The position numbers and the translations under genes were made by a program. Source: Saccoglossus kowalevskii (lineage: Eukaryota > Hemichordata > Enteropneusta > Harrimaniidae). From it: a stretch of 23,705 nucleotides of DNA. The notes beneath the pieces are model-generated. The model did not search any database. It was not told the DNA's origin and worked only from the letters and a program-made list of their open reading frames with translations. The stretch lies in the NCBI RefSeq assembly GCF_000003605.2, contig NW_003141311.1, positions 443,795 to 467,499 of the forward strand, written 5' to 3'. This document shows positions 571 through 23,097 of this stretch, piece by piece (the stretch's first letter is position 1; every line of letters begins with the position of its first letter).

Positions 571-610
571 TGAAATTAATTAAAATCAGGCTTTTCTGCC
601 TCATATCTTA

Positions 611-2160: not shown

Positions 2161-2549
2161 TTTTGGAGTGTATTTATATATCAAATATAAACTTGGCTGT
2201 TATTCGATATCTAGCTAACTCGAGGTTTACATTTCTTCTTATTGTTGGCATACTTTTTCAGAGAACCTAAGCATAAAATCTGCACGCCACGTTAAATCAT
2301 TAAACGTATGTAGAATCTTGGAATAGGCATATTCGGCATTGCAAGAGTCCCTGGGATGCATAATTTATATATAGTTTTGACAATAAGAATTCCATGGATA
2401 CATACAAATAGAAAAAGGAAAGTCGACTAGATCACTGAGTTCGTGACTCGATTCGCTGCATCACTAAGTGATATCGAACCATATTCTCCATAATACATCT
2501 TCTAAGGAGGGCATTGTAAAGGGGGGCTGGAGGCGGAATCAATTTTAGC

Positions 2550-3700
2550 TCGTGTTTGAATAATATCATTTATTCGTGCAATGTATATGTAATATGTTTT
2601 CCGAATTCGATTCACTGCCTCCGCACACAATTGAGAATGCACAAAATAAAATGAATCCATGTACGCAAATGTGTAGTGTGGAAAGAACAATTTATAATTC
2701 TACCACTGTGCATAGTTACCATACTGTCTGCAACTGTCTAGTTGTGTTGAACAGTCTTGAACTCAAAATTAACAAGGTTTTTCTGAATCATTACATGTTT
2801 ATTGTTTCATTGTTACTTTCAGAAGTGTAGAGCCTACTATTGATCTTCCCCAGACATACGAAGAGTGTGTTGTAAACAAGCGCAAATACGAACACGTTAG
2901 GAATATCGTCTATAAGCTACCGTGTTGAAATGAAAGCCAGAGGGCGTGATACAGTAGCAATTGATATCGATATCCAAGGTCTACATAGTGACAACAGGTA
3001 ATATATATAAGCAGTTATTATAGTGTGTTACATGTAAACTTAACTCCCATCCCAACCTCTGAATAAAAAAACACGGGAATCCAACTTCAATCCATTGCCA
3101 ATATAATAAATAATAACTGTGTTTCCAAGACAATATCTTATCAAGACCTTATCACTTCATTCTAACAGTTATAAAAACAATGACGGATTCGAATATGACG
3201 AACCACCACGGCCATTGTATCAAGAGGCCCTTATACTCAAAGAACGCGCACAATTTGTCTTGAGTTCTACATCAGCGTGACGACTCTCGCTCACATCATG
3301 ATTTCTACGCTTACGTTGACCACGTATCGACATTTTTATTACCAAGCCTTCCTCGTCGAAAGTTATGGCAACACTTTCGAATCTCCATGACAACACTGTT
3401 CATACTAACATCATACCACAAAGATTTTTTCATCAATGTATTTTTTATTACTTTTATATTTTTTGTTACCATATTTGGGATTATGTATTTTTTTATCCTT
3501 CGGGACGTAATTGGTTAACATTAATCACAAAGACAAGACAATATTTGTTGAATGTTTTTATAAAAAAAATCAAGATGGCTTTCCTGACTTGAGCTTGCAA
3601 AACTCTCGTGACTTGAGATTAAATCACATCATTATTGGAGAATGTAACAAAGGAAGACGTCATTTTGAACAACTTTTGGGTTAATTTTGACAATACACTT
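2550..3700 (+). repeat. Segmental duplication, copy A (partner 7730-8910)
   Basis: This block aligns collinearly with 7730-8910. Matches include a shared CGTGTTTGAATAATAT at 2551-2567 and about 7733, both exons, the intron between them, and 3' flank landmarks such as AAAGTTATGGCAA, GACGTAATTGGTT and GACGTCATT.TGAACAAC. A weaker match about 130 bp further upstream (ACTAGATC..GATTCG at about 2424 and about 7309) suggests the original duplication was longer. Copy A is the decayed partner. Confidence 0.85.
2823..3280 (+). pseudogene. Unit A: broken paralogue of gene B (exons 2 and 3)
   Basis: Exon 2 (2823-2997, after a TTTCAG acceptor and before AG|GTAATA) and exon 3 (3169-3280, after TCTAACAG) match exons 2 and 3 of gene B base for base over long runs. 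Compared with B, exon 2 has one extra codon near its start and a one-base insertion near 2871-2876. The insertion shifts the frame and leads to a TGA at 2926-2928. Exon 3 is still open to its TGA at 3278-3280. Both WW-binding motifs are gone: the first PPSY reads PQTY and the second reads RPLY. In the shared 32 codons at the end of exon 3, five differences are silent and five change the residue, as expected once selection is relaxed. No convincing exon 1 exists upstream. Because exon 2 is flanked by phase-2 introns, a transcript skipping it would keep frame, so residual expression is not excluded, but no start exon is seen. Confidence 0.8.
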
Positions 3701-4247
3701 TCCTGAGTCCCTTTTCATGAAATATTTAGATATCTAACTCGGCAATTTCGTTGTTGATAACTTCGTTCCAGTGTTTTACCAGCATTTCGACATTTTTAGA
3801 TATTTTTATATGAACAAATCCATTCATGGTGGCGCTATAACATTATACTGCCAGAATTTTATTTAACATTTATTTAAGATATTTATAAAATAAAAAATAA
3901 ATAATACAAATGAATGTTTTGTCAGTGTTCAGCAAAAAGCTATAGAACACATATTTTACATATAATGCATAAAGAATACTATAAACGCATGTGTTTTATT
4001 CACAACACTTGTGTTCTGATGTGAACCTCGCCTCGGGTAATGACTGGTAATTACATGTGAAAACGCTGCAAGAAAGCTCAAAGGGTGAACATCAATTCTA
4101 TCTTCCTAAGAGTTAACAGCTTGTCCTGCCATGAATTTGCGTAAACGTTATCTCAACAAACTATGCAATAACCTGAGGTTGAACTGGCGAATAGTCGCTG
4201 AGTTTTTTTTTTCCATACGCACAGCAATTCAGTAAAATTATTATTAA

Positions 4248-4274
4248 AATAATAATAATAATAATAATAATAAT
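4248..4274. repeat. (AAT)9 microsatellite
   Basis: Nine uninterrupted AAT units, preceded by a partly degenerate ATT/AAT tract. Confidence 0.95.
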
Positions 4275-6002
4275 CACAAATTAGGTCACTGCGTTAGATT
4301 TTAAAATGGATAAACATGAAATCAAATTCGTGACTCATAATATTATATGTATTAAACCCCGAAATGAAAATTACTACACTCGTCATATATGTATCACTGC
4401 ATTTATTGAAAATAATGTAAATATCTGTGTATGGCGCCCTCTATGTGTTGTCAGCGTCTATATACTGAATACTTTTGTTTTCGCCCTGTAAATCACGCTA
4501 ACAATTTCTTGGACATGCTTGGGTCGTAGACCTCAAAAATAAGTTCCGGTATTCAAGTAGTTCCCCTCATATGAGCTACAAGTGTAGCAGAAGACACTGG
4601 TGTGCTGTATAATGAGTTGTCTGACTGCATTGAATCATTAAGAGCTGGTTGTTTTTGTCATTGTTTCCTTTAGCATGTGTTTCTGGCGGATCGGTAGATT
4701 TGTCAGATAACTGAGTATTTAGTAAAATATAGCGACCTCCTCTTCAGAGGTTATTTTGTTACTACGTGTCACCTAGCTGTAAACTAGGTCAAAAGATCAA
4801 AGAGCATAATGACACTGTATAACCTTAGATCTAGTGAACGAGTGTTTTTTCAACACACCTTGAGAATCCGAATCCTAGAGCACACCCATCCTATTATGTT
4901 TTATGGTGGTTTATCGGGAAACGTGTTGGCCAAGACTTGTTTAATGTTAATAGGCCACCGCGTTTAACTGTTTTCAAAAGATACGTACTTTCTCGCCAGA
5001 TATACTTTTACGAATCTATTAACGGAGACTTGGTATCAATTTTACTTGAACTTCTCGTCTGATCTATATGAAATAGGAGGAGATAAGATGTGTTGGGGAT
5101 TTCCACTTACATTTAACACTACAATAAAGACTTTCCGTTTTTGACATTGTGAAATGCTGTCGCTTTTATGCAGAATATACTGTTATTTGTTATTTGTGTG
5201 TGTACGTTGTCATGACTCGTGTTTTGTCAGGCCAGCAAAAATGACTACGGTAAACATGTTCAACTCGAGCTGAGTTCGACTCTAATAACCCCTCGGTGTT
5301 GAACTGCAATAATACTGAGCCCCTATAGTCAAAGCCGTTGTTCCCACCTCGACTCTAAATTAGAAGGTCCGAATATCTTACTTCTACGTTCAAACACAAC
5401 AGTATGAAATCACAAGAGATAATCTCCCGGTGATTGGTAGGAGGGGCTATATTTTGGCACTGATAAAATGCTATCGTGTAAATCTATCAATAAACATCTT
5501 GATAAACTTTTAAGAGAAACACGTACACTAAACGGCTGAACACCAACGAAACTACCATAATGACAGGCCCAACAGACATGGATTCTGTCTTTAACTAATA
5601 TGTATTTTTCCTGATCATTCGCCTTATTCGAGAATAACAGAAGGTTCTAAAATCGTTGTGAGCTAATAATACTAAATATCTAGTATGCGTGGTCTTCTTA
5701 TTCACAAATGTCAGTTTTGTTTACTTGTACACGTATATGAAATATTGGGCAAATATACTTAGTCGCCAGTAGGTGAGCAAATAGTATATCAACAAACAAA
5801 CATGTATAAACAAACTATAAACAGCGATAAATGTAAGGACAAAATAATTTTTCATAACTTAGTGGCAAAACATGTGTATGCTGGAGACGTCCCCCGTCCC
5901 CTGCGGTTATGTGACTGATTGTTCGTTTGTCTTTTACGTTAATGTTTGTCGTAAGATACATCTGTCATATCTTTTAATAATTAAACCACTTTTTGCGGGC
6001 GC

Positions 6003-6020
6003 GGCACAACATGTTGTGCC
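6003..6020. promoter_or_regulatory. Perfect 18-bp palindrome upstream of gene B
   Basis: GGCACAAC followed by ATGTTGTGCC reads the same on both strands over 18 bases, about 680 bp before the start codon of gene B. It could be a dimeric transcription factor site, but no factor can be named from this alone. Confidence 0.3.
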
Positions 6021-6702
6021 ATAGTTCATAGGATGTGCCGTGACGTAGAACAATGGACCGTAATATTTACGGGATATTCGTCAGACCAAACAGACCTTTG
6101 ACAGTGATTGCCGTTTAATACACATCGACTTTTGTAAAACAATAGAACCACCCCTAATAGAAGAGGATTTGCAGTGAAGCAATTTTGTGTTACTGTGCAG
6201 TTTAGACTTTGTGAATCTGGAACGAGGAGCGTACTATGTATCATCAATACCATCGGTCTATATTTACAACCTTATTTTTTATTATTGACACGCGATTTGG
6301 CGATTGCCCGGAGCATTACTCACATTGATGCAGTGCAAGGAACTACAACAGCGTGTGACCCCAAGGCATTAAAAAGACGACGCATTCGTGCATGAATAAG
6401 TGCAGTACAGGGACCTAACATTTAAGCATATATATCGAACCAGGATAGCGAGTGAACATTGACCATATTAGGGTTCTACTAGTATATTACTCGTGTAGAG
6501 ATTGGTATCAGTTTTTATCAATGTCGTCAGATCAGTTTAATTACAAAAAGTTGTTTATTCATGACCCCAATGCTATAATTATCATGTAACAGTACGTATG
6601 AATCAGATATAAGATTAACCAGTCCGGCGTGATCAACTGTAAAACGGTCTTTAACTAAGACACTATTTACCACTCGTACCGTACGCGATTCTTTAGCACA
6701 AC

Positions 6703-8406
6703 ATGGGCAACCGCAAACAGAGTATACTTGACACCGTGATTTCAGTCGTCGCCTTAATGGCATGTATATTTATGCTGGCCATCGCGATACGTTCCAATGA
6801 TGCAGTCACGATGGTTGTGTTGCTATCGATAGGACTAGTGATAGGAACGGCATCGGTAGCAACAGTCGTGAATATGGTTAAGCGGTGCATAGAGCACGAT
6901 GATGACGAGGAGGAGGAGGAAACAGTGAACACAGTCATTGAGAGGTAAGGCTTGTTTGTTATACGGCAAGTATAGGTTCGTGATACCGTCTGTCTATATA
7001 GCGTTTATACCCGGTGGTCGGAATTTTAAGTGTATTCCAAACAATATAATATTTCCAATGCATTAACTGCCTCTGTTATTCAGTTAATGCTGAATCCTTA
7101 CAGTGTACTTTAATAGTCTTCAATTCTATCTAGCAAGATGCACCGGCGTCGATATTAAACCAATCTATTATCTTGAAATTGAATATTATAATTATAATTC
7201 AAAAAGTGGGGTTCTAACTCAAGTTATTGTAATTTTGAACTATATTTTTGTTTTTTGCAACTATGCCAACAACAATTACACGGCTAAGTACGAATACAAC
7301 AGAAAGTGAACTAGATCCCGGATTTCGTGGTGATTCGATTCACCAAATCAATATAAAAAAATTAATATTTTCTGCTTCCTTATAATACATTACTTATAAA
7401 CGGAAGTCGTAAGGATTAGCTCATATTACCGAGAAGTGCGGTTTTGGCAAAGTGAAGTGTCACATGGATTATAGTTTAGTATCGATAAACTGCTAAAATC
7501 CAATTTGACGTTCAGACGAAACACTTTTTAACACGTTTAGGTTTTGAAAAGCAGGAATATCGTACCTACTTGTCGATTACATATGTTCTTTAAATATATA
7601 CATGTCCAGGCAAAATGAATTGACTGAGTTTGGACAAAACCTCAAACATCAAGGTTATTTAGATCATATGTGAGAAAGAATCTATAAATGCCAATTCATG
7701 GAAAAAAAATCACGATTCAGTTTAGCTATGGACGTGTTTGAATAATATAATTCTAGTTTCCAATGTACATTTATCCTATTTTTTTGTCCGGTTTCAAATA
7801 AACACTACCAGAATCAACGAACCATTTTTGTATTTTATTGTCGAAATAATGATCTGTGTTTCGACAGGGTACTCTTTGATATCGTACAAGTATATCAACA
7901 AGTATCATAAACATGTTTATTTCAAATATGTCATTGTTGTTCACAGACATTCGGACCCTACTGATCTTCCCCCGTCATACGAAGAGTGTGTTGCAACAAG
8001 CGCAAATACGAACACGATAGGGATAACCTCTATTAGCCATCGCGTTGACATGGAAGCAAGAGGGCGTGGTACAGTAGCAATTGATATCGATATTCAAGAT
8101 CTACATAGTGACAACAGGTAATAATACATTATAAACAGTTATTGTAGTGTGTTAAACCAAAGACTCTATAGTCTTTGGTTAAACTTATACCGAAACAACA
8201 GGAAGCCACAATTGAATATTTATTAAAAAACAAATGTGTGTACAATTTAATAACATTATTAATTTTTATGCACAATTTCCAGGATTCACAACGGTTGCCA
8301 AGACAATGAAGGATTTGAATATGACGAACCACCACCGCCATCGTATCAAGAGGCCCTAGCACTCAAAGAACGCGCACAATCCGTCTTGAGCTCCACGTCA
8401 GTGTGA
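6703..8406 (+). CDS. Gene B: two-helix membrane protein with two PPxY motifs (178 aa, 3 exons)
   Basis: Exons are 6703-6944, 7947-8117 and 8283-8406. Splice sites are AG|GTAAGG, TTCACAG|A, AG|GTAATA and TTCCAG|G, and both introns are phase 2. The ATG at 6703 has a good context (A at -3, G at +4). Residues 8-29 and 35-59 are hydrophobic helices separated by a short RSND turn, so both ends probably face the cytoplasm. A basic KRC stop-transfer end is followed by an acidic run (residues 64-73). The first PPSY is at residues 89-92 in exon 2 and the second, in a PPPPSYQEAL context, at 156-159 in exon 3. PPxY motifs bind WW domains, so an adaptor role for NEDD4-type ubiquitin ligases is likely but inferred. 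I do not recognise a named orthologue; the layout is like vertebrate TMEM51-type proteins. Unit A is its decayed duplicate. A weak AATAAA follows at 8989-8994. Confidence 0.85.
7060..7090. repeat. Inverted repeat in intron 1 of gene B
   Basis: GCATTAACTG (7060-7069) and its exact complement CAGTTAATGC (7081-7090) flank an 11-nt spacer. It is a small perfect hairpin with no clear function. Confidence 0.6.
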
Positions 8407-8910
8407 CGACTTATACATTAATACGTCGAGCACGTGTATTCATATTTATTACAAAGCCATCTTGGTACAAAGTTATGGCAAAACTTTCAAGTCTCCGCAG
8501 TGGAACTGGTCTTACTTTAAGTTACCTCATCGTGAAGTTGTTTTGTGTGTGTTTTGTTTTTATTATAAATAATGAATTATTTATTTTTATATTTTCGTAA
8601 CTCACTAACCCTTGCAGTGCGTGTCTGTTTTCTGTGGACGTAATTGGTTCACGCTAGTCACGTGGACAGGATAATATTTGTTGATAAAATAACAGACTAT
8701 TCAAGGTGGCACCTTTATGTGGTATGACCGTGAACAGCGACAGATTCCAGTTAAATGAATCTTACAAACAAATCGAAGAAATATCATGTTTCTCTGATCT
8801 GACGGTGACCGAAACGAGTCGCGCTACTTGAGACCAAAGCACATCGTTATTGTGCGACGTAATAACAGATAATGACGTCATTCTGAACAACTCCCTGGGT
8901 AACTGTTACA
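7730..8910 (+). repeat. Segmental duplication, copy B (partner 2550-3700)
   Basis: Collinear partner of the block around unit A. It holds exons 2 and 3 of gene B, their intron and about 500 bp of 3' flank. The 3' flank contains a perfect TGACGTCA (8873-8880), where copy A reads AGACGTCA. Confidence 0.85.
8152..8183. repeat. Palindromic insertion in intron 2 of gene B
   Basis: Arms AACCAAAGACT (8155-8165) and AGTCTTTGGTT (8170-8180) are exact complements around a 4-nt loop. At the same place in copy A the sequence runs from GTGTGTTA through CATG to TAAACTTA, so B carries about 25-30 extra bases consisting of this palindrome, or A lost them. Confidence 0.6.
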
Positions 8911-8988
8911 CAAGGATATGGTGCTATAACTGTTACATAGATATGGTTCTTAGAACAAATATATGATATTTGTTTTAATATTTCAATT

Positions 8989-8994
8989 AATAAA
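8989..8994 (+). other. Candidate polyadenylation signal of gene B
   Basis: AATAAA about 585 nt past the stop codon of gene B. AATAAA is common in AT-rich DNA, so this is only a candidate. Confidence 0.25.
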
Positions 8995-9478
8995 AATCAA
9001 TTTCTGAACTATGTGTGAATTTAACAAAATTATATTTTACTGTTGTATGTGAATGGATTTAAAAAATGGCGAATATACTTTATAATAATATGTTTTTAAA
9101 GGTGATTTCACATGTTCAAGGATGTTACAACACATATTTGATTTCTTATGAGAGAACATTAGAATACTAAAAGTCAACACAAAGGGAAATCGGTGAGTTC
9201 ATCGTTCCCGGCCTCGCAACACTTTCTGTTTACATGGTGGTACTTAATTATTTATACACTGGCTGTTTCAAATTAATTCAAACTCTAGTAGTCTAGACAG
9301 GGACAACATAATTGTTCCCACCAACAAACAATCTTCTTATTCCCACTGTCTGTTGACACTGACCAGAACCACACTTTGTTTAAGACTTCCTGGCATCAAA
9401 ATAATCTGATCAATAACATCAAGTAAAATTTTCGGTAGCTTGCATCAACTATTACTGCAAAAATGCTGTCGCGCTATC

Positions 9479-9508
9479 GCTGATTGGCTACTCGCCCTGC
9501 CAATCAGC
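9479..9508. repeat. 10-bp inverted repeat with opposed CCAAT motifs
   Basis: GCTGATTGGC (9479-9488) and GCCAATCAGC (9499-9508) are exact complements around a 10-nt spacer. Each arm contains a CCAAT-type core. No promoter context was found next to it. Confidence 0.45.
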
Positions 9509-10382
9509 TGGACGGTGTCAAAAGACCTTCAAAACAGATCCAAAACATGTTTTCTATCCCAATTGAAAATGCATTGATAATTTGTAACTCCAAACTTTAT
9601 GAAGCCGATTTTTCAAATGAAACATCAAGGTCCCATAACTCAGTTTAGTGGTCTTATTATTAACACACTTATACACAGTACACTTTGGTGAGTGGCGCAA
9701 AATTCGTATGCATAGGAACCTGAGTGATTGTCAAGTAGATGAGAAAATCATGTTTTTCAATATAATGGACGTCTTTACGGAAAATAGAGATTAAAATGGT
9801 TTGTGGACCTAGATTTTCCCACTTTACGTACTAAGTATACTATTCACCTTAGCATTTGTGTAGTAGTGAATTGATCGACCCCCATCAGCTTTTTGTGCGA
9901 TTTGCCATGTATGGTAACATATTTAAAATGTAATATTATAATAATAACAATAAATGTGATTGTTTTGGTGAACCAAACATTATATAATTATAGATGCAGT
10001 TTCGTTGGCACTCGCAGCCCTAAGATATGTTTTTACATTTTTATATGTTGACAGACTTCATACAAAATTTCAAAGCCCTGTCATACGTTAAACATACTAA
10101 AAAAGCGTTGAAATAACCATTATTATAATTATACATCTGTCACCGTAACCCACAAGTTACAGAGTGCCGTAATTTTGCGGTATTGCCGGTAATTTCATCC
10201 TACCATATTAGGAAACGCAAATTCATATGGATATATTACGCGCATAATCGTCCTCTAATAATAAAAACATACATGGCTGCCCCAGTTTATGACCGGACCC
10301 CACACAAAGAAATTCGCTTAATCTGTTCTAAACGTTTTGGATTTCGGCATTCCCATGATGTATTCCTGGAAGGAAAAGATTA

Positions 10383-10464
10383 AGGTTATTACGAGAATAC
10401 TGCAAAGTATGCACTCCCGTTGTACTGTCTTCGTGCATACTTTGCAGTATCCTCGTAATAACCT
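10383..10464. repeat. Long hairpin: 32-bp arms, 18-nt loop
   Basis: The arm 10383-10414 is the complement of 10433-10464 with one mismatch (A opposite C), with an 18-nt loop between. Total length is about 82 nt. The size would fit a microRNA-type precursor or a short foldback transposable element. It sits alone in the B-C interval and no second copy was seen in this window. Confidence 0.7.
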
Positions 10465-10700
10465 CATATTATTGTTTTTTCCGAATGCATTCCATAATTT
10501 GCAAAGCTGTACATAAATAATGAAAGTATGATTTGGAAATTAATACTGATGCCAGAATCTCCGCATAATTAGTTATTAATAACATATTACAAATAAGTAA
10601 TCTCTCAGTCTATGTGGAAGTAATAACAGATTCATCATAAGTGTCTGCACTGGGTGAATGATTATGCACACTGGCCAATATCATAGTATGCCTATATATT

Positions 10701-10749
10701 CAGATAGTCTGATTTGCTACAAACGTGTCATTATATTTTGGATGACATA
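10701..10749. repeat. Dispersed repeat, copy 1
   Basis: About 50 bp shared with 13670-13721 at roughly 85 percent by eye. Shared blocks include ATAGTCTGATTTGC, a CATTAT block and TTGGATGACATA. It may be part of a larger degraded element whose edges I cannot define. Confidence 0.5.
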
Positions 10750-12103
10750 AGATGTAAATGTTCTCAACCTTTTCAACTGAATACCTAAGACGCAGATATA
10801 CTCATTCTTAAACCTCAACTGTATACTAGTATTATATCGTTTATATATTTTTTATGTCTTAGGTGTTTTGATATTTTTAAATGGCTTTTTTTATTAAAGT
10901 TCTACTCGTGGTAGAGCTTCAAAATATTAACCATAGTTTAGTCAATATTGTCCACATATAAACAAAACCGGTTTTTGCTCCAACTTTTCCTATTCCCCGT
11001 TGTCATTCAATAAAAATATGTTATATTTCAACTCAGACAAGGTTTGAAGTTTCAAGTGTGCCTGGAGGCGAGGTCGGCCGATGTAGACATTTCAACAACG
11101 TAACACCATGGTACCAGGGCACCAACGTTGCCAAGGTCGGGCGTGCTTTTGACCATGACATAAATACTGTACAATAACTTGACTGCCGACAGCAGCATAC
11201 TATGGTCACGGTGGCTCTGTTTTTTTCAATGTTATCTGGCAAATACATTTTGAGTTTTATACAGTCGATGAATATTTCAACATCTTTTTCATCAATCAAT
11301 TGTAATAATAAAATATACTTTTTTCACAAATTATGAATATATAGATAGATATATTCATATCAGCGAAAACAAACAAAGGTCAATTGGCGAATCTGACAAT
11401 AATTAATCTCTCAGACTGCGCATGTGACGTGCCATGTATATTAATAACTAATGGCTGATCGACATCGTCTATCTCTGACCTGTTTATCGAAGCACTTAAT
11501 GATGATAGTTACTGTACAGTAGATATAGCCGTGTATGGTTAACACGATGCACCAGTCGTGAACAATTCCGTTTGATTTACAGTGCAGCATCGACGTACAA
11601 CTGATCACAATGTACTGGCTCACCTCCGAGTAATATTCGCCAAGTTTTTTTGGGGGGGATTCACAGTAATTTCAATCGCTCTACAGGTACGTTGTACATT
11701 TCATCACGGTCTTCCTGTGACCTATCATTTATGTACTGTTGGTGTGATGACCTTATCTCACAGTATCAATGTATCGGTGGTTTTGGGTCAGTGATACGCT
11801 AAATTCAAGCAAAAATTACTTAAAAATGAGTGTATATTAAGCAGTATAAATCAATAGTCATTTGTCTTAATTATAATCCAGATGGGTAACATTTTATAAT
11901 TAAATAATTTTTGTATGTGTGTACACATGACAGCGCACTTTATTGCTTACATCGGCTTAATGTTTAGTTATACTGGCGATATTTGCAAAGTATTAATAAG
12001 TAGTGAGGAATACGGAAGTTTATTATCGACTAGCACAGGATTTTTCAGACAGTGTTTGGTAAATGATTTTACGCTTTGCGTCACTGGTTCCAAAATAGCC
12101 AAG

Positions 12104-12111
12104 TCACGTGA
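12104..12111. promoter_or_regulatory. TCACGTGA E-box (within GTCACGTGAC)
   Basis: The ten-base palindrome GTCACGTGAC at 12103-12112 is the consensus form of the CLEAR element bound by TFEB/MITF-type factors in vertebrates; other bHLH factors also bind CACGTG. It lies about 1.06 kb upstream of the gene C start codon. Confidence 0.3.
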
Positions 12112-12738
12112 CACACCTGCCTACTCAGTACATGATGGTGCCACATCTTCATATCTTACGCGAGTCAGGGTGCGTATCGTTAAGCTGACATGCCTGCGCT
12201 AATTAACCGCTGTCACTCCGGATGTCCTTCTATGATCGCAAATTGTGGACTCCATATGATTACAATACTATATAGTCGGTAATATCTTACGTATGGGGCA
12301 AAAACAGGAAGAGTTGGTTGTTTCCACCAAAAAAATGGGCAGAGGTGTGTACTGCCATCGAAACGGAAACCCATGCCCTTTGTTTGGATTTGGATTTCAA
12401 ATAAGGATATGGTTTATTTAGGAAACTGTTTCTCTTTTCGAAGTTCTGCGCATGAGAATGACGTGCAATGTCTTTGTTGCGTGGACGCATTTGGCTTGGA
12501 CCACGATCCACGAAAATTTTGCGTATAGAACATTAAAAAAACAACTATCAAACCGTGGATCATTAAACGAATTGTCTTTGACAGTGTAAATTAAGTTGTA
12601 TCTACTAGGTACAATATTCAAAAGACTGCTCCTTTTAAATAAAGAGTTAATTTTATCAATTGTATACCTTTGTATTAAAAAAAAGACTAAGGGCGACACG
12701 AGAGAATTCAAGAGAATTCATATGCCATAAATTCCTTG

Positions 12739-12756
12739 TATATATATATATATATA
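12739..12756. repeat. (TA)9 run
   Basis: Eighteen bases of pure TA alternation. Confidence 0.9.
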
Positions 12757-12904
12757 CTTCTATTTAATATAAATATTCTATTTCTATATATTTGGGAACA
12801 ATACGTTATCTTATCACTATTAACTCAAAACCTACGTAAGCTATGAAAAGTTCTATTGTCACTATGTTGGCATATACAATATCCTCATAGTGACGATTGT
12901 CTCA

Positions 12905-12976
12905 TTAATCACCCCTCCCACATTTATCCTGATTACATCTCCCACAGTTACGCTGATCAACCCTCCAACACACCCC
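12905..12976 (+). repeat. 24-bp minisatellite, three units
   Basis: Three consecutive diverged 24-nt units at 12905-12928, 12929-12952 and 12953-12976. Each carries a CTGAT(T/C)-like start and a CCTCC or TCTCC core. In one frame they would read as three copies of an L-I-T/N-x-P-T-like octapeptide. The frame has no start or splice context that I trust, so I treat it as non-coding. Confidence 0.5.
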
Positions 12977-13174
12977 CAATTACTCTCTTACAGGGTATTT
13001 AATATTTCGCTGTATTGTTTCACACAGGTACACTTTGATGATCAAAAGGATGAAGACGATTTCAGTTTTCTGACATCCAACGAAATATAATCACATATAT
13101 TCAGCATCTTCGCACGCCTAGTGTATCATTGGCGGTTAACTTGAACTACATAGACTGAAACAAAACTAACCAAC

Positions 13175-15092
13175 ATGTCTAAAGCAAGAGATATAGCCAA
13201 CTTCACCGTCGCCTTTGTGTTGATGCTAGGCGGCATAATCCTCGTGTTTGTCATGGGAATTACAAACGATAGTTCATCAACGCTCGTGGTGCTGGCTCTT
13301 GCTGCCGTTCTGATTGCCTTTTTTGTTTATTCTGTTTATAAAATGTTAAAATGGACGGACTGTTTCAATAAATATTGCCTGGGTCGTCCAGTGACGAATG
13401 CCGGGACGGCGTCTTCATTAAATACGGCAATTGGGACCCCCAATGAGACACATGTGAATAATATGGAAATGCAGCCATACACACATGATACGAGGTAAGC
13501 CATTGGCTAGCAGTGAATGAAACTCACCGCATCTTTATAATCGTTAGTAATGCGCAAGACATATTTTTCAGAATCATTCAAAATCCGACAAATACCTCCA
13601 GTGTATAACTTTGAGCATTGTTTTAGCATGTCTAAATATTTTATTTGACATCAAATCTTGATAAATATGCAGTATAGTCTGATTTGCAACAAATATGTGG
13701 CATTATTTGTTGGATGACATAATTGAACACGACAGTGCTCCGTTGTGCGCCGAATTTACCTGTGCGTACAGAAAGGGCTGGCGCGCTTGCATTTTGACTA
13801 TTCGTCGAACGGATACTATACTGCTTATTGTGATACCAAAACAGCTCTTTTTAATTTTAATTTAATTTTCTGCCGTTTTTTTAAAGATGTAAACTAATTA
13901 TTTAAAAATGATTAAAAGTAATTCACATCGCCCCTCATTTTATATTTAATGAAATCACATTACATTTATTGTATGATATGTACATACTACGTTTACTTCA
14001 TTATTTTTGTAATTCCCCGTTTCCTTTCTGTATATATCGTTCTTTCATAGTGGCATGTACATGTACGGCGATTACCCCTTGGAGGAGCCGCCTCCTTACT
14101 CAGAGCTGGACCCCAACGTATTTGTGGTGCCTTTACCTTCCGAGGAACAGGGAGAATTTTCTCCCAACGCGCCACAAAATTCGAATTCGCGTAGTCCGTC
14201 CGAGGGGAGCATTACGAACACTCCATCGCATCAGCCGGATATACCCAATGTTGTTATTACCAGGGACGAGGAGAACGGTGAAGTTAAGGAAGACGACGTA
14301 ACGCCGCCGGCTGAGAATGGTGACACCAATGATGATGGTGGTGGTGGTGGTGACAGAATCGTGACCGTTAGTGATAAGTAAGTAATACTAAAATCAAAAA
14401 GTTGGTTTAGAGTAAAAAACAATTCTAATTGAAGTAATTGATGCTACTTGCACTAAACTGTGGTCAGCAAACTTATATTTAAAGTTAGTTCCATTTAAAT
14501 CCAAACGAGTCAATCAGATTGACTCGGTCGGTATCATCTCCACTTTGCGCATAGACTATGACAAATGCCGGTGTGTTTGTGTCTATAAATTTTTAGATTT
14601 ATGAATAACTTATATACGTACATGACTACAGTGTATTTCTGCTGTGGCAGCAATAAACATATGTTCAACTTAAAATATTCCTACCCATGCTGAGTAATCT
14701 AGCAGAAATAATCTCCATGCGCAATAATAAGATGCCATATTTTATTTCCTTGAATTACTAAACATTAATCCCGTAAAGTCAAATGTTAGGATACTAATTC
14801 TATGCAAATGCATACAACAATTAAGCAACTAAAAACAATTTTTTAATTGAGCACAAACTCGTTTTCCATGCATTTGCACGTTATTTTAACAATGAATACA
14901 TAACACAGTATGTTTTAATTTGCTACCAAAAAAGTAATCGTGGCCCAGTGTTACGTAAATAAAAAAAGGATGACATGTTGAAAAACGCACGTAATGCGCT
15001 TTATTTATCAATGTTATTGTTGTTGTTTTTTCCCCTGTAGTGTTGGTTACGACAACGACGCCTATCAAGACGAAGAAGACATTGAAAAATAA
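13175..15092 (+). CDS. Gene C: two-helix membrane protein with PPPY motif (232 aa, 3 exons)
   Basis: Exons are 13175-13494, 14051-14377 and 15041-15092. Splice sites are AG|GTAAGC, TTTCATAG|T, AA|GTAAGT and CCCCTGTAG|T, all phase 2. The ATG has A at -3. Helices lie at about residues 8-29 and 36-57 with an ITNDSSS turn; the ND in the turn and the following (T)LVVL/MVVL are shared with gene B. Exon 2 opens with a Tyr-rich stretch and an EEPPPYSEL motif (PPPY at 120-123). It then runs into a long Ser/Asn/Pro/acidic disordered tail ending in five glycines coded by a GGT repeat. The last exon is a short YDNDAYQDEEDIEK tail whose Y219-D-N221 fits the YxN pattern bound by GRB2-type SH2 domains when phosphorylated. 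A WW/SH2 adaptor role is inferred. No named orthologue recognised. Confidence 0.85.
13670..13721. repeat. Dispersed repeat, copy 2 (intron 1 of gene C)
   Basis: Partner of 10701-10749 in the same orientation, with small indels. It lies inside the first intron of gene C. Confidence 0.5.
14506..14526. repeat. 9-bp inverted repeat in intron 2 of gene C
   Basis: CGAGTCAAT (14506-14514) and ATTGACTCG (14518-14526) are exact complements around a 3-nt centre. TGACTC resembles half of an AP-1 type site; no functional claim beyond that. Confidence 0.45.
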
Positions 15093-16288
15093 CAATAAGT
15101 CAGAATTGGATTTTAAAATGGGTCAATATTGATTCAGGGCAATACCGTACCAGTGCACCCATTGAACATGCATACATATATAACGGAGATGTTTGTGACA
15201 ACGATCCACAGGGCGTTTTTTTTTATACAGCACACTGGTAATGATTGACTATGTCTGGTGTGCGTACTGATTATTGGATGACCTCGAGAGATGATTCATG
15301 CGAACCGGCGACTTGTGGCCACAGATAACCCTTGGGAGCAATCTTCTCGTCACAGGGTAGCGATCGGTGCCAAAATGAAGAACATAAATAAGATTTTTGG
15401 CTACTTTTCTGGATCAACTTAACTTAAAGAGTGTCATCAATACAAGGCGTGGGATTGACAACAGAGTTATTTATTTTACAGTTGATCATCGGATTTGAAC
15501 TGGAATTTATTTTACCGCAGGATGAACTATAGACTGTGTTTGACATGTTTAATTTGACGCATGTGATAATTTCAATGACGTCACATCGATACGAGACTCG
15601 TAGTCAGTCGATTACTGGATACCTTGCATAGGACCATTTTTTTTTGCAGGATTACAAATTTAAGAATTTCGAAGATTATACATTTGTACAGCGTAAAATA
15701 ATACGTATTTATTATTGTTCATAATTACTAAAAAGTGAAATAAATTTTAAAAAGAATTTTCGTATGATATTGTATTACCATTTAAGACGTTGTATATATA
15801 TATAAGTGACACAGTTTTTCTGATTTCTATCTAACCAGTGTAAAATAATGACAGCCATTTTAAAATCACATCCATCATACCAAGCTTGAAATATTTGAAT
15901 TGCTCAGTGTCATACATTCGAAGCTTTCATCCCCCCCCCCAAAAAATATTTTGATATGCAAGATAGGCCTTGGTCTTTATAATCACCGATTTAACGGATC
16001 ACCACGAACAACAATTTATTATTATTTATCGTGATGACCTTAGGGTTAATTTTCAACTTATGGAATGAACGGGGCGATGGAGAAGAGTACGGGTCGAATT
16101 CCGTCGAGTCACCACTTATTCTCGGCGCAAATATCGTTGTTATAAAACAGCAAGTTAATTATCATAATCCGCCTAATAATATAGTGGAATTTGAAGATGT
16201 TGGATGAGCGCTAACATGAATAATAACAGACGTGTCTTTGAATGACTTCGAACACAGGTCGTGTATTGTTTTGTTATTTGAAACCAAG
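15093..16288. other. Interval between genes C and D
   Basis: About 1.2 kb holding the 3' flank of C and the presumptive promoter of D. An AATAAA within GAAATAAATTT near 15738 could end the C transcript. A perfect TGACGTCA (CRE-type palindrome) lies at 15576-15583, about 700 bp before the D start codon. A C-run sits near 15932-15940. No exon was supported. Confidence 0.45.
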
Positions 16289-17415
16289 ATGGCGGGATTC
16301 ATCATGCCATCGACACACAAGACTCGTACGGGCCTACTAATAATTGGCGCCATCGTTATACCCATAATGATCGTACTGTTAGTTATCACTGCTATCGCTG
16401 GAATACCGGCACTATTGATTGTAATGCTCATTATAACTGTGCTGGTAGTAGGATCCATTTTTTACACCGGCTACGTCTGGTTCAAACCGGTCTTCCAGGA
16501 GCCCGACCCAGATCAACTTCGAGTATCTGAGGTGACGTACAGCCAGGCGAGAGAGGGTGCTTCTCCGAAAGTGATACACTGTACTGTTGTATTTCCTGAA
16601 AGCCGGCGAGATGAAGTACGGACGATGCAATTAGAGCGTACATTGGCCGCCAACTCACACTCACACAGTCGACACCATCATCGAACGGCGTCAGATTCAA
16701 CGTCGCCCATCGTTGAAGCGAACCCAAATTCGGATACTCTGACTAGACAGGAAAGGTATATACTTCACATTCACATAGTTTTGAGATAGTTTTCACGGCG
16801 ATGTTGCTGCTATTTTTCTTTTTCTACAAGTGTCAAATTTGTGTGTACTTTTTATGAATATAGTATTTGTTGTTGTTCCGTTCTATTGGTACGACTTGTT
16901 ACCCCTCCCAGAATTTCTCGTTGTCAACTTATTTCTTTTTTTTAATAAAATCATTTTGATTTCCTCAAACAATTGGAAAGGTATTTTACTAACAAGGCGA
17001 TACAAATACATCGCACTCCGTTCTAGTAACATCACTTTCCCCGAAGAACCGAAACGGAAATAAGATTCCCACCACAGACAATTATAAATTGTATCAAGGC
17101 GCGGTCTTTAAGATATTAGCAGGCATCCCGGAAAAAAATCCTTGGATCGATTTGTAAAATTGCATTTCAAGTGTTGCATTGTAGCCTACTGCTAGTCTAA
17201 TTGTGACGTAAGGCCTATAATGCCGATTTTAAAACACAATCAATTTCAACAGCTTGAAACCAATACATATTCTTTGTCGCTTCAAGGGAACACATCATGA
17301 CATGATCATGATAAATCAATATTGATGTAACGCTTCTCATTTCAGCGTTGGTGATGGAACTATTTACGAAAACAAGGCGTATAACAGTGAAAATGGAGAA
17401 GAGTACGAAGCTTAG
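16289..17415 (+). CDS. Gene D: two-helix membrane protein without PPxY (178 aa, 2 exons)
   Basis: Exons are 16289-16755 and 17346-17415, joined by AG|GTATAT and TTTCAG|C in phase 2. I chose the ATG at 16289 because ACCAAGATGGCG is a strong initiation context; a 19-residue upstream extension in the same frame starts at 16232 in a weak context. Helices are residues 15-36 and 41-63, very rich in Ile/Val, with a short AIAGIPA turn. The exon 1 tail (64-155) includes a VTYSQAR tyrosine site at Y84, a basic/acidic stretch at 105-117 and a His-rich run at 124-131. No PPxY occurs in either exon or in the intron. The last exon is clearly the counterpart of the gene C last exon (SVGDGTIYENKAY against NVGYDNDAY) and ends in acidic EEYEA. 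Y163-E-N165 is a YxN site. An unseen third exon or alternative ends cannot be excluded. Confidence 0.75.
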
Positions 17416-17650
17416 AGTACATAATTGCCAAATAATAGGACATACATGAATCGCGTTTGCGACATTTCTGTGATCCATCAGAACCCTATGATATAATCCG
17501 CGATCGATGCTTCAGTTCAACCTATACAGCGCCCTCATTGTTCACTTAAAACTCAAATGTACACTCAAATGTACATGTATATAAATATGTGTGTACGTTT
17601 CCACTGCGGGTTACGGTACTGACCCATTTTAAAATATGCTTATTACAGAC

Positions 17651-17656
17651 AATAAA
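17651..17656 (+). other. Candidate polyadenylation signal of gene D
   Basis: AATAAA about 236 nt after the gene D stop codon, followed by a T-rich stretch. Placement is reasonable for a 3' end. Confidence 0.35.
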
Positions 17657-17897
17657 AATACGCTTTATAATAATTTTGTATCATACTTATAATGATGCAT
17701 TATGAAATAGAAACATATACCATATATAGAAAGAACTGGCCTATGGGAGAACATGGCCAATATTAGATGGTATACGATAGCGGAGTGTAATTAACTATTT
17801 GTTGTGAACATTAACCAGGGCCTTCATTTTCCCAGTTATGTCTGCAGTGTGCCACACATGATTGTGTGGACCCTTTGTGTTCCACGAGTTCCATATA

Positions 17898-17905
17898 TCA
17901 CGTGA
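17898..17905. promoter_or_regulatory. TCACGTGA E-box
   Basis: An eight-base palindrome, in an ATCACGTGAT context, between genes D and E. Confidence 0.25.
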
Positions 17906-18011
17906 TTTTAAACTCAGGACGTTAATCATTTTATTAATAAAAATGTGCCCAATAACAATATCCATATATAAATACCAACAAATCTATTATAGTATATGTA
18001 ACGAGTATGAG

Positions 18012-18019
18012 TCACGTGA
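18012..18019. promoter_or_regulatory. TCACGTGA E-box (within GTCACGTGAC)
   Basis: Second exact GTCACGTGAC ten-mer in the window (18011-18020), 113 bp from the preceding box and followed by CCAAT. It overlaps a possible alternative exon, so its nature is uncertain. Confidence 0.25.
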
Positions 18020-20004
18020 CCAATATAGGTGGGGACACTACGAAGACAAAACTAGTTGACAGAGCATTGATAAGTTTTTAACATATTGTATCACGTTTCT
18101 CACAATTTCTTTCAACAATTTCTTTTTTAGGAAAGATTCTGATCAAGTTTTGTAGCCAAGGGAATTATGTTCATTTTGTTTAAAATTAACGAACGAATTC
18201 TATGAAAATATATAAAATATTTCAAAATATTGCATCAAAATCTTGGCCTTTCAAATAATCTAATGAAGAACTATCGATGCCGGTGAGTTTCTGGTTTAGA
18301 ATCGCTGAGGGCCACATTTGATTTCAAAGCCAGAAACTTCGAGGGCGTGGTTCTCTATCTCAACACGATATTACTTGAATTATTCCCGCAATTTTCTATA
18401 ATATGATACAGCACAGAGCACTGTGCATGAATCCTGTTTTAATATATTATGATTTATTCCTGCTTATTAATTTTCCTTTTAAAATTCGTACCCGTTTCAA
18501 AAAATGTAAGATGCTACGATAAGGAAGTATTCCTGAAAAATCCCTGACCTATTTCAATACCGTCTGTTTAGTTTTACATCTTGTCCCTATATGGATATCC
18601 TACATGTGTGTCCCAATTCCGGAGTTAGCCTTAGGTTGTCGGCGGTTATTCCCCCAGACAATTACCAAACAATACAACAACACAACGTCAAAATCGTGGT
18701 AATACACAGGTTTACCCCAAACCCCGAAATTTCAATTTCAGGTGGCATTGTAGCCTTCGGGAAGAATACAGCATCACAACTCGGTTTGTTTCTCACCTTC
18801 AAGACCTATCACCAACAATATAAACGCGTTGTACTTTAAATAATTGATAGCTTTCCAGAAAAGTGTATTCTTTATCGACTTTATCAAATATGGGAGCGAA
18901 TCAGTTGAAATGATGCCAAGGTTAAACTGTCAAATTATGATAGATGCGAATCTACTATTTGCATTGGTTATTCAATCAGGTTATACGAGTAGGTACTAAT
19001 ATAATGTTACTCGGATGAATGTAATTTGGCTGACATGTCTCTAGTGCTATCATGATGTAAATACATGATAGTTCATAATGTATTTGTTGTCGCATGGTGA
19101 TTATGTGGTCTTTATACACATTTATGGCCTACACATTGGAAATTAAATAGTCATAAACAACCCGTGTTCTATTTGATCATGTCCAATCTGCATAAAACCA
19201 TAAAAGTTAAAAACACCTAACAAATTGAGACTGGCGAGTTTTGGCGCGTGGAGCACCGACCCCGGTACAAAAAGGGAACACGTATGTATATGTGGGACTG
19301 TTTTTCATTTGACTTAGCAATAAACCGAATATTTATTATTCATTTCGTACAACATGTTGCCATGGATACCAGATGTACGTGTTTACCTGCGTAGTCTCTG
19401 TGTGACACGTCTCCGGAGTCGAAATTTAGCAATAACCATAAATAAAGTGACCTTTAAATACCACCCACGATCCAACAGATTATTACTTGATTTGACGATG
19501 AACTGAAATTTACAACCGAGGATCACGACCTTGTTGGTAAGTGAGAAATGTACACTAAAAGAGAGAACAAAGCAGAGCATATAATAAACTCTATTTCAAA
19601 AAAAAATGTATCCACGTACTAGAGACGTGTATATTGTTGAGCACAAACACCTATAATAATCTCCCGTTTACAAAGAAGCCATTCGGCAGTGACGTTCTAT
19701 GTACGTGTAAATTACGACATAAAATCATAGTTGTTGAAAGAGAAAAGAAAATTAATATTTGACACGATTTTTTATTGAGATATCTCCCCAAGGGACATGC
19801 ATGAATGGAGGTACCTTGATTATGTTTGGTTATTTTTAGGAATTTTTTTTCACATGTATTGCGCGGTTTGTATAACACATGGGCCAAACAGTGCATGTTA
19901 AACGTCTTCTTTTTTCTCTGAACCTGTCTTTTGAAAACAGCGTATTCACCATAAACGCTCGTCACTCTGTCAGTTATTTATCACCACAGGATTGGCGTCG
20001 ACTG

Positions 20005-20012
20005 TCACGTGA
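20005..20012. promoter_or_regulatory. TCACGTGA E-box upstream of the gene E leader exon
   Basis: GTCACGTGAT lies about 180 bp before the strong splice donor of the proposed leader exon, so it is placed where a proximal promoter element of gene E would be. Confidence 0.35.
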
Positions 20013-20099
20013 TCGCAATAATCAATACACCAAGTTAAATATTATCTAAGAGATATCATACGCTTAGGGTTGAAAAACACAAACAACAAACTAGTGCTG

Positions 20100-20187
20100 A
20101 TACAGAACTACCGATATACAGCAAATTTATAGTTTGCCGAGGAAGACTATTATAGTTGTGTTGCATACAATATATCCGGTGAAGCAG
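20100..20187 (+). other. Proposed untranslated leader exon of gene E (5' end not defined)
   Basis: CAG|GTGAGT at 20185-20193 is a near-perfect splice donor. A good acceptor, TTCTCTTTCAG at 21308-21318, lies 111 nt before the gene E start codon. Together they suggest a leader exon ending at 20187 joined to an exon running 21319-21926. The transcription start is unknown; the left boundary given is a placeholder. Confidence 0.35.
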
Positions 20188-21318
20188 GTGAGTACCAACG
20201 GCTTTGTGAAACCAGAACAGTTGTTCTGTATTGGTTTTTAATTATCTTGTCTGGTACCGGGAACTGGTGTCTCCGATATGATATAGCAGTAATTTCCACT
20301 GCGCGTGTACGCCAGCACCCATGTTGGATTTATTGTGATGTTCACACGAATTGACAACAGGAATTTTAGTAAATTGTCAGTCTTTCAGAATAATTATCGC
20401 CGTCAGCAAAAATCATATTATTTTAAACAACCGCATAGCATCGCAACGGTCGAATAAATATGATAAGTTGTTCTAACGTACATAATATATAAAAACCTTG
20501 AATACGTGTTTATTTATATATTTTGTTATTAGTTTCTCTGATGACAAAACCTGCATTGGGAATTGTTTTGTCTGGCACACAGTTCTGTAACCTTTTATAA
20601 GATTACAATATATTGAACTTTGGTCTATTTAGCCAATCACCGACTCGCGTTTGTATCTTGGCTGCACTTCCGCTTGCACAGAAATCTCCGTGTGATTCAT
20701 TTTGATATAATGCGGTAGGTTTATTTTGTATGTTTTATTTTTACTCTGGAATGTGTTACAAAAAACTACTTCCTCTACATTTCAGTTCATGTCAAAAGAA
20801 TTGAATAATTATGTTATGATAAAAAATATCACAAACATCTTAAACCAATGGCATTATTATACACATTCCTTTGAAAGATACATAATTTGAAAAAACACAA
20901 TCTGAAAAAAATGTGATTTATTGCCATATTAACGATCTGTCACTATAAAGTACGATAAATAAAGCATAGTACATCCGGGTATTTAAGATGGCGTATCACT
21001 GCACGTGACATGTTTGTCCGAGTACGTCACTAAATATAGTCCTCGGTCGATTAGTGAAACAAGGAAAATTCATTCATCATTTATAAGAAGTGTATTTTTA
21101 CTTATTAATAATGTACGTACTATATGTTTCTTAAAATAGAGAGACGTGACATAGAGACGTGCATTGTACGCAATCGCACCACACGTGTATTTCAAAAGTG
21201 AGGTTTCCTGATTTGCAAACAAGTATTACATAACCGCTGTTTCGAACAGAGTTGTACAGAAAAGTATTTGTTGCACGTCACATGTCAATTCAAATCATAA
21301 CCCTAGTTTCTCTTTCAG
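20188..21318 (+). other. Proposed leader intron of gene E
   Basis: About 1.1 kb AT-rich stretch between the strong donor at 20188 and the acceptor at 21318. It contains a CCAAT motif near 20633 and GCACGTGAC near 21002, so it could instead hold a second promoter. No coding exon seen. Confidence 0.3.
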
Positions 21319-21429
21319 ATTGTAGTGCAGAAGCATTGGCATGAGTGTTCCCACGTGACAAATAATCAAAAAACCCAAACGAAGATTTTTTGAATTATAT
21401 TAAATAATATTAAAAGTAGCGCTATAGAC

Positions 21430-23097
21430 ATGAATTCATGTGACAGCGATACACGAAGACTGAACCAAGTGCAGCGAGACGAAATGTTGCGAATGGAATC
21501 CCTTAGGCGACCTCTCAATTTACAACAGGGGAAACGTGGTAACCTCGTCATCTGTGCTACGTGTTTTTTAATGGTACTAGTCTTCGCAATATTTGCCGTA
21601 CTAACAGTCTCCTTTCCGATCATCGGGTGGATGTTGGCGTTTCCTCTCATCTTCGTCTTTCTCGTAATTGTGCGACATATATCCGGCTGTATAGTAGGGA
21701 GAAGGTTCGATCGATTGGAGGCTGATGCCAGGGCTAGCAGGGAAGCTAGAAATAGCTCAGTGAACAGAGAGACAAATGACGACGGTAGTTTGCCCGCAGT
21801 TCCTGATATGCCACCCTCTTACGATGTGGCGTGCCCAGACTCGAGTCAAATGGGCAACGTATCGTCTCCAGTTTACGCCATCAGCGGCGGTAGCATATCT
21901 GACTCAGGAAATCATGACCAAGACTTGTAAGTAATGTTATTTTACTAGTAGTATACTTAAAGCGCGGTGGTCGTCGCGCAGCGCACCGCGCTTTAGCAAA
22001 TCATGGAAAATGTACATCATTACAACGTTCATATATATACAAAATATAACAATATTTACATTACGAAATTGTGTTAGTATATGTTTTCAGAGTGACGGTG
22101 GCCAGAGGGCATTATCGAGGCGGTCGTCACCAGATTGAACGGTTTCCAACTGGTTACTGACACATAGTAGCTTAAAGGGAGGCAGTCGTTGTGCCGCGTT
22201 CTGTTCGATATGGGACTCATAGCGACGTATACAACGCGTGTAAAATACATTGTTTATTTACATGAAATTCGAACACGCGCTGCGAGACGACCATCGCGCT
22301 TTAAGCTTATTCCAACTGACCACTGAATCTCGGATATTCTACTTCACTAACTTGTGGAATATTTGAATTGGTTGCCGACTACCTGGATATTCAAATTGGC
22401 CACCGGCACTTAGGTATTACAAATCGTCACCGAAATATATAAAATATATTCTACTATAAATGCCACCAATATTGAAGCTCTGTCCCGATAAATATTTAAC
22501 AAAATCCACAATAAAGAAATGATCTAAATTTGCTAACATAACATTTCCCCCCAAAATATGCACCATCACAGGGACAATTCTAAAAAAAAAGCATCACACA
22601 TTATGACTACTCAGTATACTAATACAATAGAAATGTCTACGCGAAGCCTCGATATTGTATATTTCGACGAGTATCGCGTTATACTGGCAATTGAATCACG
22701 GCCAGGCATGCGCAGAGCACTCCATTCTGAGAAGAACCATGACCGAGCCACATATTTGATTTGAAATGAAATGTAGTATCCAGCATAAAATGTGTTGATC
22801 ATCAACACTTATGTCTAATTTTCGCGTGCAACTCGCGTTTTAATTGCTTGGAAACATACGCGCGTAGTATACGTCACGGTCGCACAAGACACCGAACACG
22901 ACGCATTTTGTCCAAGTTCACCGTGACGTACTATGTATGTATGCGTAACTAATGAATTATTGTCTCATTTTCAAACCTGTAGGATGTACTACGTGAATGA
23001 ATCTTACGAACAGGACGGAGACGAACCTCCACCGCCCTCTTACGAGGAAGCGTTGAGACTGAAAGAACTAGAGGAAAGTAACAACACGCCGACATAA
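21430..23097 (+). CDS. Gene E: two-helix membrane protein with two PPxY motifs (203 aa, 2 coding exons)
   Basis: Coding exons are 21430-21926 and 22983-23097, joined by TT|GTAAGT and CCTGTAG|G in phase 2. The N-terminus (1-37) is long, charged and polar; helices are about residues 38-60 and 64-83 with an SFPIIG turn. A basic GRRFDRLEADARASREAR segment follows the second helix. The first PPSY is at 128-131 in exon 1. The last exon gives MYYVNESYEQDGDEPPPPSY and EEAL (PPSY at 183-186), directly comparable to gene B exon 3, and also carries Y169-V-N171, a YxN site. WW-domain binding is well established for PPxY; an adaptor role for NEDD4-type ligases is inferred. A competing last exon at 22091-22160 would replace the second PPxY end. 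No named orthologue recognised. No canonical AATAAA was seen close after the stop. Confidence 0.83.
21956..22305. mobile_element. Nested inverted-repeat element in the gene E intron
   Basis: CTTAAAGCGCG starts at 21956, and its inverted counterpart ends in CGCGCTTTAAG at 22305. The outer arms match over about 28 bp with two mismatches. The left part alone folds into a perfect 11-bp hairpin (21959-21969 with 21984-21994). A third related end starts at 22171 (CTTAAAGGGAGG) and pairs with the 22305 end at about 70 percent, defining an inner unit of 135 bp. This is typical of MITE-like, non-coding DNA transposons, some internally deleted. No clear target-site duplication could be assigned. Confidence 0.55.
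22091..22160 (+). other. Possible alternative last exon of gene E
   Basis: A TGTTTTCAG acceptor ends at 22090. Joined to the gene E donor at 21926 in phase 2, it reads LVTVARGHYRGGRH.. and ends at TGA 22158-22160. The product would keep both helices and the first PPSY but lose the second PPxY and the YxN site. The tail is basic, unlike the acidic tails of the family, and the exon sits inside repeat-derived DNA. It may equally be chance. Confidence 0.25.
22306..22440. repeat. Degenerate tandem-like repeats in the gene E intron
   Basis: Related short strings recur: TTCCAACTG.. at 22144 and 22310, GGATATTC at 22333 and 22386, and (A)ATTGG..GCC at about 22367 and 22395. This suggests an eroded minisatellite or the flank of the neighbouring inverted-repeat element. 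Unit borders are unclear. Confidence 0.3.
22792..22808. repeat. 17-bp palindrome in the gene E intron
   Basis: GTGTTGAT and ATCAACAC are exact complements around a single central C. Confidence 0.5.
22855..22943. repeat. Foldback structure just upstream of the gene E last exon
   Basis: Arms 22855-22880 and 22920-22943 pair as CATAC, five unmatched bases, TAGTA, a 2-nt bulge and a perfect CGTCACGGT, around a 39-nt loop. It ends 40 bases before the last exon begins. Confidence 0.5.

Follow-up and report, generated by a model that had tools for sequence, protein, structure and literature searches.

According to published work, barttin spans the membrane twice and carries a PY motif that is a target of Nedd4-2 (PMC7314819). 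In yeast, Sna3p is presented as a protein with two transmembrane domains whose carboxyl terminal PPAY motif binds the WW domains of Rsp5p and directs sorting, and which belongs to a small family in plants and fungi (PMC2171029). Comm and Ndfip1/2 are likewise reported as membrane adaptors with PY motifs; they recruit Nedd4 to a receptor (Robo1), which is sent to late endosomes, and the same source gives comm no homologs outside insects (PMC12101832). The genome of the hemichordate Saccoglossus kowalevskii codes, in a stretch of 23,705 nucleotides analysed here as a whole (the window; positions 443795-467499 of the + strand of contig NW_003141311.1, its right end being the contig end), a tandem cluster of four predicted genes, units B to E. 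Their products combine two amino terminal hydrophobic helices with tails that carry PPxY and/or tyrosine-type motifs. A decayed copy, unit A, precedes them. This count of units refers to the window, upstream of which 50 kb read as N throughout.

Gene models and exon 1 helices

Each of the four units B, C, D and E is predicted from the sequence to start on the + strand with an ATG exon that codes two hydrophobic helices, followed by one or two tail exons (Table 1). At the level of predicted genes and motifs there is good support for a local cluster of such two-helix proteins with PPxY/Tyr tails. Open reading frames (ORFs) of at least 60 amino acids (aa) with two 19-aa windows above a Kyte-Doolittle value of 2.2 were sought in six frames of the window, the limit having been fixed after the lowest of the eight exon 1 hydrophobic peaks was seen at 2.39. 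Only exon 1 of B, C, D and E was retrieved, always on the + strand, and 60 dinucleotide-shuffled windows yielded none against these four. The layout proposed in the initial annotation of this DNA is thus found in B to E. Its count of five units on one strand holds for these four, while the fifth, unit A, turned out to be a decayed copy of exons 2 and 3 of B.

The six introns placed by frame-keeping predicted splices in B-E are all in phase 2, as had been noted initially. Their splice sites appear fair to good on crude scores that use an approximate donor matrix: among the 1447 GT sites of the + strand the donors rank 3 (B1), 23 (B2), 4 (C1), 25 (C2), 58 (D1) and 28 (E1), and every one of the six acceptors is in the top 8% of AG sites, the last acceptor of C in the top 0.2%. 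An alternative last exon of E at 22091-22160 is also in frame. It was not used: its acceptor is weak (top 26% of AG sites), and it resembles none of the four last exons in the models, 584 to 1995 of 2000 shuffles scoring as well. It lacks an N-x-x-[YF] motif.

The hydrophobic segments span residues 11-29 and 38-56 in B, 11-29 and 36-54 in C, 15-33 and 36-54 in D, and 39-57 and 63-81 in E. The loops between them are short and have a net charge of 0 or -1. Ahead of helix 1 all four proteins have more basic than acidic residues, and C, D and E show the same excess behind helix 2. By the positive-inside rule this charge balance would place the tail in the cytosol, the four proteins probably forming a hairpin with both ends cytosolic. 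A hairpin with helices at residues 3-31 and 34-78 is also predicted, with modest confidence, by AlphaFold2 for exon 1 of B when the other three exon 1 sequences are supplied as alignment; block means of the predicted local distance difference test (pLDDT) reach 78-84 over residues 11-60.

Exon 1 sequences were compared in pairs against shuffled sequences. With plain shuffles, 2 of 2000 were as good as the real pair for B-C, 36 for B-D and 40 for C-D; for the pairs with E the range was 438 to 1881. When helix and loop composition was preserved, 58 of 2000 shuffles equalled the B-C pair and 515 to 1999 the other five. Likeness beyond hydrophobicity is therefore weakly indicated for B-C only. The earlier statement that the helices have diverged strongly fits those five pairs; B and C remain weakly alike.

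Table 1. Predicted exons of units B to E and exon remnants of unit A, in window coordinates
Unit	Part	Features	Positions	Strand
A	exon 2 remnant	copy of B exon 2, 86.5% nucleotide identity, 1-nucleotide insertion, early stop	2823-2997	+
A	exon 3 remnant	copy of B exon 3, 84.7% nucleotide identity, PPxY lost	3169-3280	+
B	exon 1	N terminus and two helices, donor phase 2	6703-6944	+
B	exon 2	symmetric 2-2 exon, PPxY (PPSY) at 7969-7980	7947-8117	+
B	exon 3	NEGF at 8305-8316, PPSY at 8335-8346, stop (TGA)	8283-8406	+
C	exon 1	two helices, donor phase 2	13175-13494	+
C	exon 2	symmetric 2-2 exon, PPPY at 14088-14099	14051-14377	+
C	exon 3	YDNDAY (N at 15054), acidic end, stop	15041-15092	+
D	exon 1	two helices, long tail without PPxY, donor phase 2	16289-16755	+
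D	exon 2	YENKAY (N at 17371), acidic end, stop	17346-17415	+
E	exon 1	two helices, PPSY at 21811-21822, donor phase 2	21430-21926	+
E	exon 2	YVNESY (N at 22996), PPSY at 23032-23043, stop	22983-23097	+

Tail motifs, last exons and unit A

PPxY occurs twice in B, once in C and twice in E. Two or more copies were found in none of 20000 shuffles of B, and the two of E have a P of 0.00015. Six-frame translation of the window gives seven PPxY, all on the + strand, five in gene exons and two in introns; this total alone is not decisive because the best of 60 shuffled windows also reaches seven. The tail exons had been described as carrying PPxY and/or tyrosine/acidic motifs. This is borne out for the PPxY of B, C and E and for a tyrosine-type motif in all four units, with the qualification that D is devoid of PPxY and that the first PPxY of E lies in exon 1, outside the tail exons.

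The last exons of B and E match each other better than any of 2000 shuffles. For the other pairs the number of shuffles as good was 45 (C-D), 55 (C-E), 105 (B-C), 165 (D-E) and 1056 (B-D). All four last exons contain the motif N-x-[AGS]-[YF], as NEGF in B, NDAY in C, NKAY in D and NESY in E, followed in each case by acidic residues. A second copy in C, NVGY, has its N in the split codon of the last junction, and the motif is found nowhere else in the four proteins. Its joint shuffle value of about 5e-6 is flattering because the motif was defined after the sequences and their alignment had been seen. With its acidic residues, N-x-[AGS]-[YF] resembles a phosphotyrosine-binding (PTB) or endocytic tyrosine motif. 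The initial annotation grouped the last exons into two pairs, C with D and B with E. The B/E pair stands and C/D are weakly alike, but the two classes look like one: since all four carry N-x-[AGS]-[YF], the comparison suggests a single ancestral last exon, with either loss of the PPxY half in C and D or its gain in B and E.

Unit A is a partial pseudogene of B according to its sequence, and not a fifth gene. Identical nucleotides number 148 of 171 in exon 2 and 94 of 111 in exon 3, compared with 112 of 152 in intron 2 and 150 of 196 and 178 of 239 in the flanks. The exons are thus 85-87% identical versus 74-77% for intron and flanks, which argues that the exon parts had been constrained. At third, first and second codon positions, A and B differ at 18, 10 and 12 of 94, respectively. 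Neither PPxY of B is kept in A, where the extra base shifts the frame. No trace of an exon 1 was detected on the + strand of window 1-2822: in the protein comparison 63, 167 and 137 of 200 shuffles did as well for the three frames, and in the DNA comparison 86 of 100.

A scan of the window revealed no tRNA and no Rfam match at the gathering threshold. Several repeats lie among the units. An element of 60-80 bases at 5105-5193 has at least 50 other matches in the genome with 79-94% identity (40 of 263 candidates scored), and occurs on several contigs as inverted pairs about 265-435 bases apart, like the ends of transposons resembling miniature inverted-repeat transposable elements. The inverted repeat at 10383-10464, with 32-base arms that are 97% complementary around 18 bases, is possibly a small mobile element or a hairpin. 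A direct repeat of ~50 bases, 88% alike, is present at 10704-10750 and 13674-13722, one copy being in the first intron of C.

Relatives in the genome and in databases

Searches covered the whole assembly of 572 Mb and 4830 contigs at E up to 10. They score the best candidates from a first look only, so distant paralogs may escape them. Among the scored candidates E matches itself and exon 3 of B (E 0.38), B matches itself, unit A and the last exon of E (E 0.17), and C and D each match only themselves; no close relatives of the four proteins were found outside the cluster. Three weak matches were obtained in PHROGs (E 0.0077, 0.013 and 0.089) over two of the four proteins. Viral contigs gave no relative of E, the one protein of the four that was submitted. 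Comparison of B and E with solved structures produced nothing convincing (best E 0.86 and 1.4, respectively; two of the four proteins). A hemichordate family of this kind does not appear among the matches listed in the literature, mostly papers available without subscription.

The mitochondrial contig of the same assembly (C4830, positions 13523-14863 and flanks) holds the sole COX1 match in the genome, on the strand opposite to ND1 and COX2. Judged at conserved positions, ATA stands there apparently at Ile sites, AAA at Lys and TGA at Trp sites; AGA is rare (2 in ND1, 0 in COX1 and COX2) and AGG is absent from the three genes. Published work on S. kowalevskii mitochondria reports AUA as Ile, AAA as Lys, AGA as Ser, AGG unassigned and COX1 inverted (PMC3121625). 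Code and inversion together indicate that the DNA most likely stems from a Saccoglossus-like acorn worm.

The statement that no described family has this organisation was too strong, because barttin and Sna3 are known two-helix proteins with PY tails, as far as the cited passages go; the same passages mention neither a tandem cluster nor phase-2 tail exons. The likeness to Sna3 lies in the two helices and the PPxY tail, set side by side by description only. Set beside barttin (BSND, PF15462), with its two transmembrane segments and PY motif, the window proteins present two helices in four of four cases and strict PPxY in three, not in D. None of the four proteins matches the Barttin profile at E up to 10. 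The profile also has no match in the genome, in a search whose named control genome is that of an archaeon and which hence has no positive control. A partial barttin sequence matched its own Pfam family at 1.9e-92 and a TMEM51 sequence at 5.1e-99; as Pfam recognises both controls, the window proteins do not fit either profile. The partial barttin sequence contains neither a strict PPxY, LPxY or VPxY nor N-x-[AGS]-[YF], so its PY motif is not of the PPxY form found in the window. Pfam at E up to 10 listed no Comm, Ndfip1/2 or Sna3 family for any of the four proteins; for Ndfip and Sna3 this comparison has no positive control and the presence of the profiles is unchecked. The comm genes are also clustered. 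The membrane topology of Commissureless and Ndfip differs from a two-helix hairpin.

TMEM51 (PF15345) has two helices, an acidic stretch and a tail with VPSY, LPSY and PPQY. By eye, the loop between its helices looks much longer than those of the window proteins. Its profile is matched by none of the four. Elsewhere in the genome it has two matches, both below the cut-off (best E 0.05) and both set aside, one being a single helix in an 83-aa ORF and the other adjoining a simple repeat. The single helix resembles weakly the second helix of TMEM51 (E 0.05).

TMEM139 is taken to have two amino terminal helices, a DNEAFE sequence and PPPY and PPAY in its tail. The sequence used, that of the human protein, is unverified; it has no Pfam family. 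Its DNEAFE may be compared to DNEGFE in B. The tail of C aligns with this TMEM139 tail with a score of 71 (0 of 1000 shuffles as good). Four kinds of shuffles gave 0 to 2 of 2000 as good and masking of PPPY raised this to 27 of 2000, for one of twelve tail pairs tried, with one of four tails similar and TMEM139 picked after the motifs had been seen. In plain shuffles of the helix regions, 62 to 140 of 300 were as good for B, C and D against the unverified TMEM139 sequence, and 2 of 300 for E. With shuffles that ignore helix composition, the helix region of C gave 5 of 300 against TMEM51 and 21 of 300 against barttin. TMEM139 is reported to bind kAE1 and is listed, in a passage that cites the original work, among the proteins supporting kAE1 stability and trafficking (PMC12959882). 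The likeness of the C tail to TMEM139 is a weak lead only.

Origin and possible role of the cluster

Most likely the cluster is a tandem family confined to this lineage, whose members would serve as PY adaptors of the NEDD4 type or as partner subunits. The specific reading we prefer, at a probability of about 0.5, is that of four tandem paralogs and one decayed copy whose products would combine a membrane hairpin with a cytosolic PY/Tyr tail and act on the trafficking or turnover of a partner through a NEDD4-type ligase. If the exons are joined in life as predicted, the hairpin would anchor a probably loose tail bearing short linear motifs, and the PPxY tails of B, C and E would be expected to engage WW domains of ubiquitin ligases of the NEDD4 family. 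The three proteins would each accompany a partner in the membrane, such as a channel, transporter or receptor, chosen by the diverged helices, and recruitment of the ligase would control trafficking and turnover of that partner. D may have lost, or never had, the ligase-binding part; it could work independently of the ligase, or its tyrosine motif could be its sole means of regulation. The adaptor role is proposed for B, C and E because Sna3p with Rsp5p, Comm and Ndfip, and barttin with Nedd4-2 act or are regulated through PY motifs.

Several observations weigh against this reading. The positive-inside rule is weaker for B, where 7 of the 15 residues that follow helix 2 are acidic and 2 are basic, and the AlphaFold2 model of its exon 1, built on 4 sequences, has a mean pLDDT of 71.6 and a predicted template modelling score of 0.39. 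With helix composition kept, the helix regions of D and E display no measurable kinship to each other or to B and C; homology of these two exons 1 is putative. D has no PPxY, the single PPxY of C is near chance (P 0.056), and the 60 shuffled windows average 2.4 PPxY, with a maximum of 7. N-x-[AGS]-[YF] is a post hoc motif. The third-position excess between A and B is slight. No Pfam family scores above the cut-off for any of the four proteins (best E 0.013).

The products might instead assist an ion channel or transporter as accessory (beta) subunits, in the way that barttin serves ClC-K and TMEM139 may serve kAE1; the hairpin would then be the working part and the PY/Tyr motifs would govern internalisation of the subunit itself. 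Barttin provides a precedent for a two-transmembrane accessory subunit with a PY motif targeted by Nedd4-2, and both the reported association of TMEM139 with kAE1 and the alignment of its tail with that of C speak in the same direction. The Barttin profile, however, is unmatched in the four proteins and in the genome, and the TMEM139 likeness depends on an unverified sequence, on one pair in twelve and to some extent on PPPY. We regard this as a tentative alternative, with about half the weight of the adaptor reading.

Exchange of terminal modules between paralogs, by exon shuffling or gene conversion aided by the common phase 2, would make of the locus an evolving cassette system. It would account for the discordance between the exon 1 closest to B, which is that of C, and the last exon closest to B, which is that of E; but loss of the PPxY half in the last exons of C and D gives the same pattern. 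Duplication that copied a single ancestral exon-intron layout would by itself give the common phase, and explains it more simply than cassette exchange. Only two internal exons, exon 2 of B and exon 2 of C, are symmetric. For these, the initial proposal that tail modules could be skipped in frame holds; it does not extend to terminal exons, whose skipping would remove the stop. Swapping of tail modules may have occurred, but module exchange is rated as improbable. Equally improbable in our view is that the units are neighbouring two-pass membrane genes of separate origin with convergent short motifs. Apart from hydrophobicity, exon 1 of E indeed shows no similarity to the rest, 1851 to 1999 of 2000 segment shuffles doing as well, and the four proteins have no common Pfam family above cut-off. 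Against separate origins stand the same strand, the same layout and phase 2 in all six introns, together with the clear relationship of the B and E last exons and the failure to find close relatives elsewhere in the genome.

A further and more speculative proposal, unlikely as it stands though a little less so than these last two, extends the adaptor reading to a set of hemichordate-specific hairpin adaptors in which the Tyr/acidic last exon is kept, helices diverge and PPxY modules are gained or lost. Each paralog would tie a different membrane partner to the same ligase or, in the case of D, shield it from that ligase, and the set would be an acorn-worm counterpart of insect comm with an independent origin.

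If the adaptor reading is right, the cluster would add a local uncharacterised gene family, probably hemichordate, to the PY-motif membrane adaptors. Its mode of diversification would be that of diverging helices on a kept motif tail, and it may offer a starting point for tracing where orphan proteins of vertebrates, TMEM139 among them, came from.

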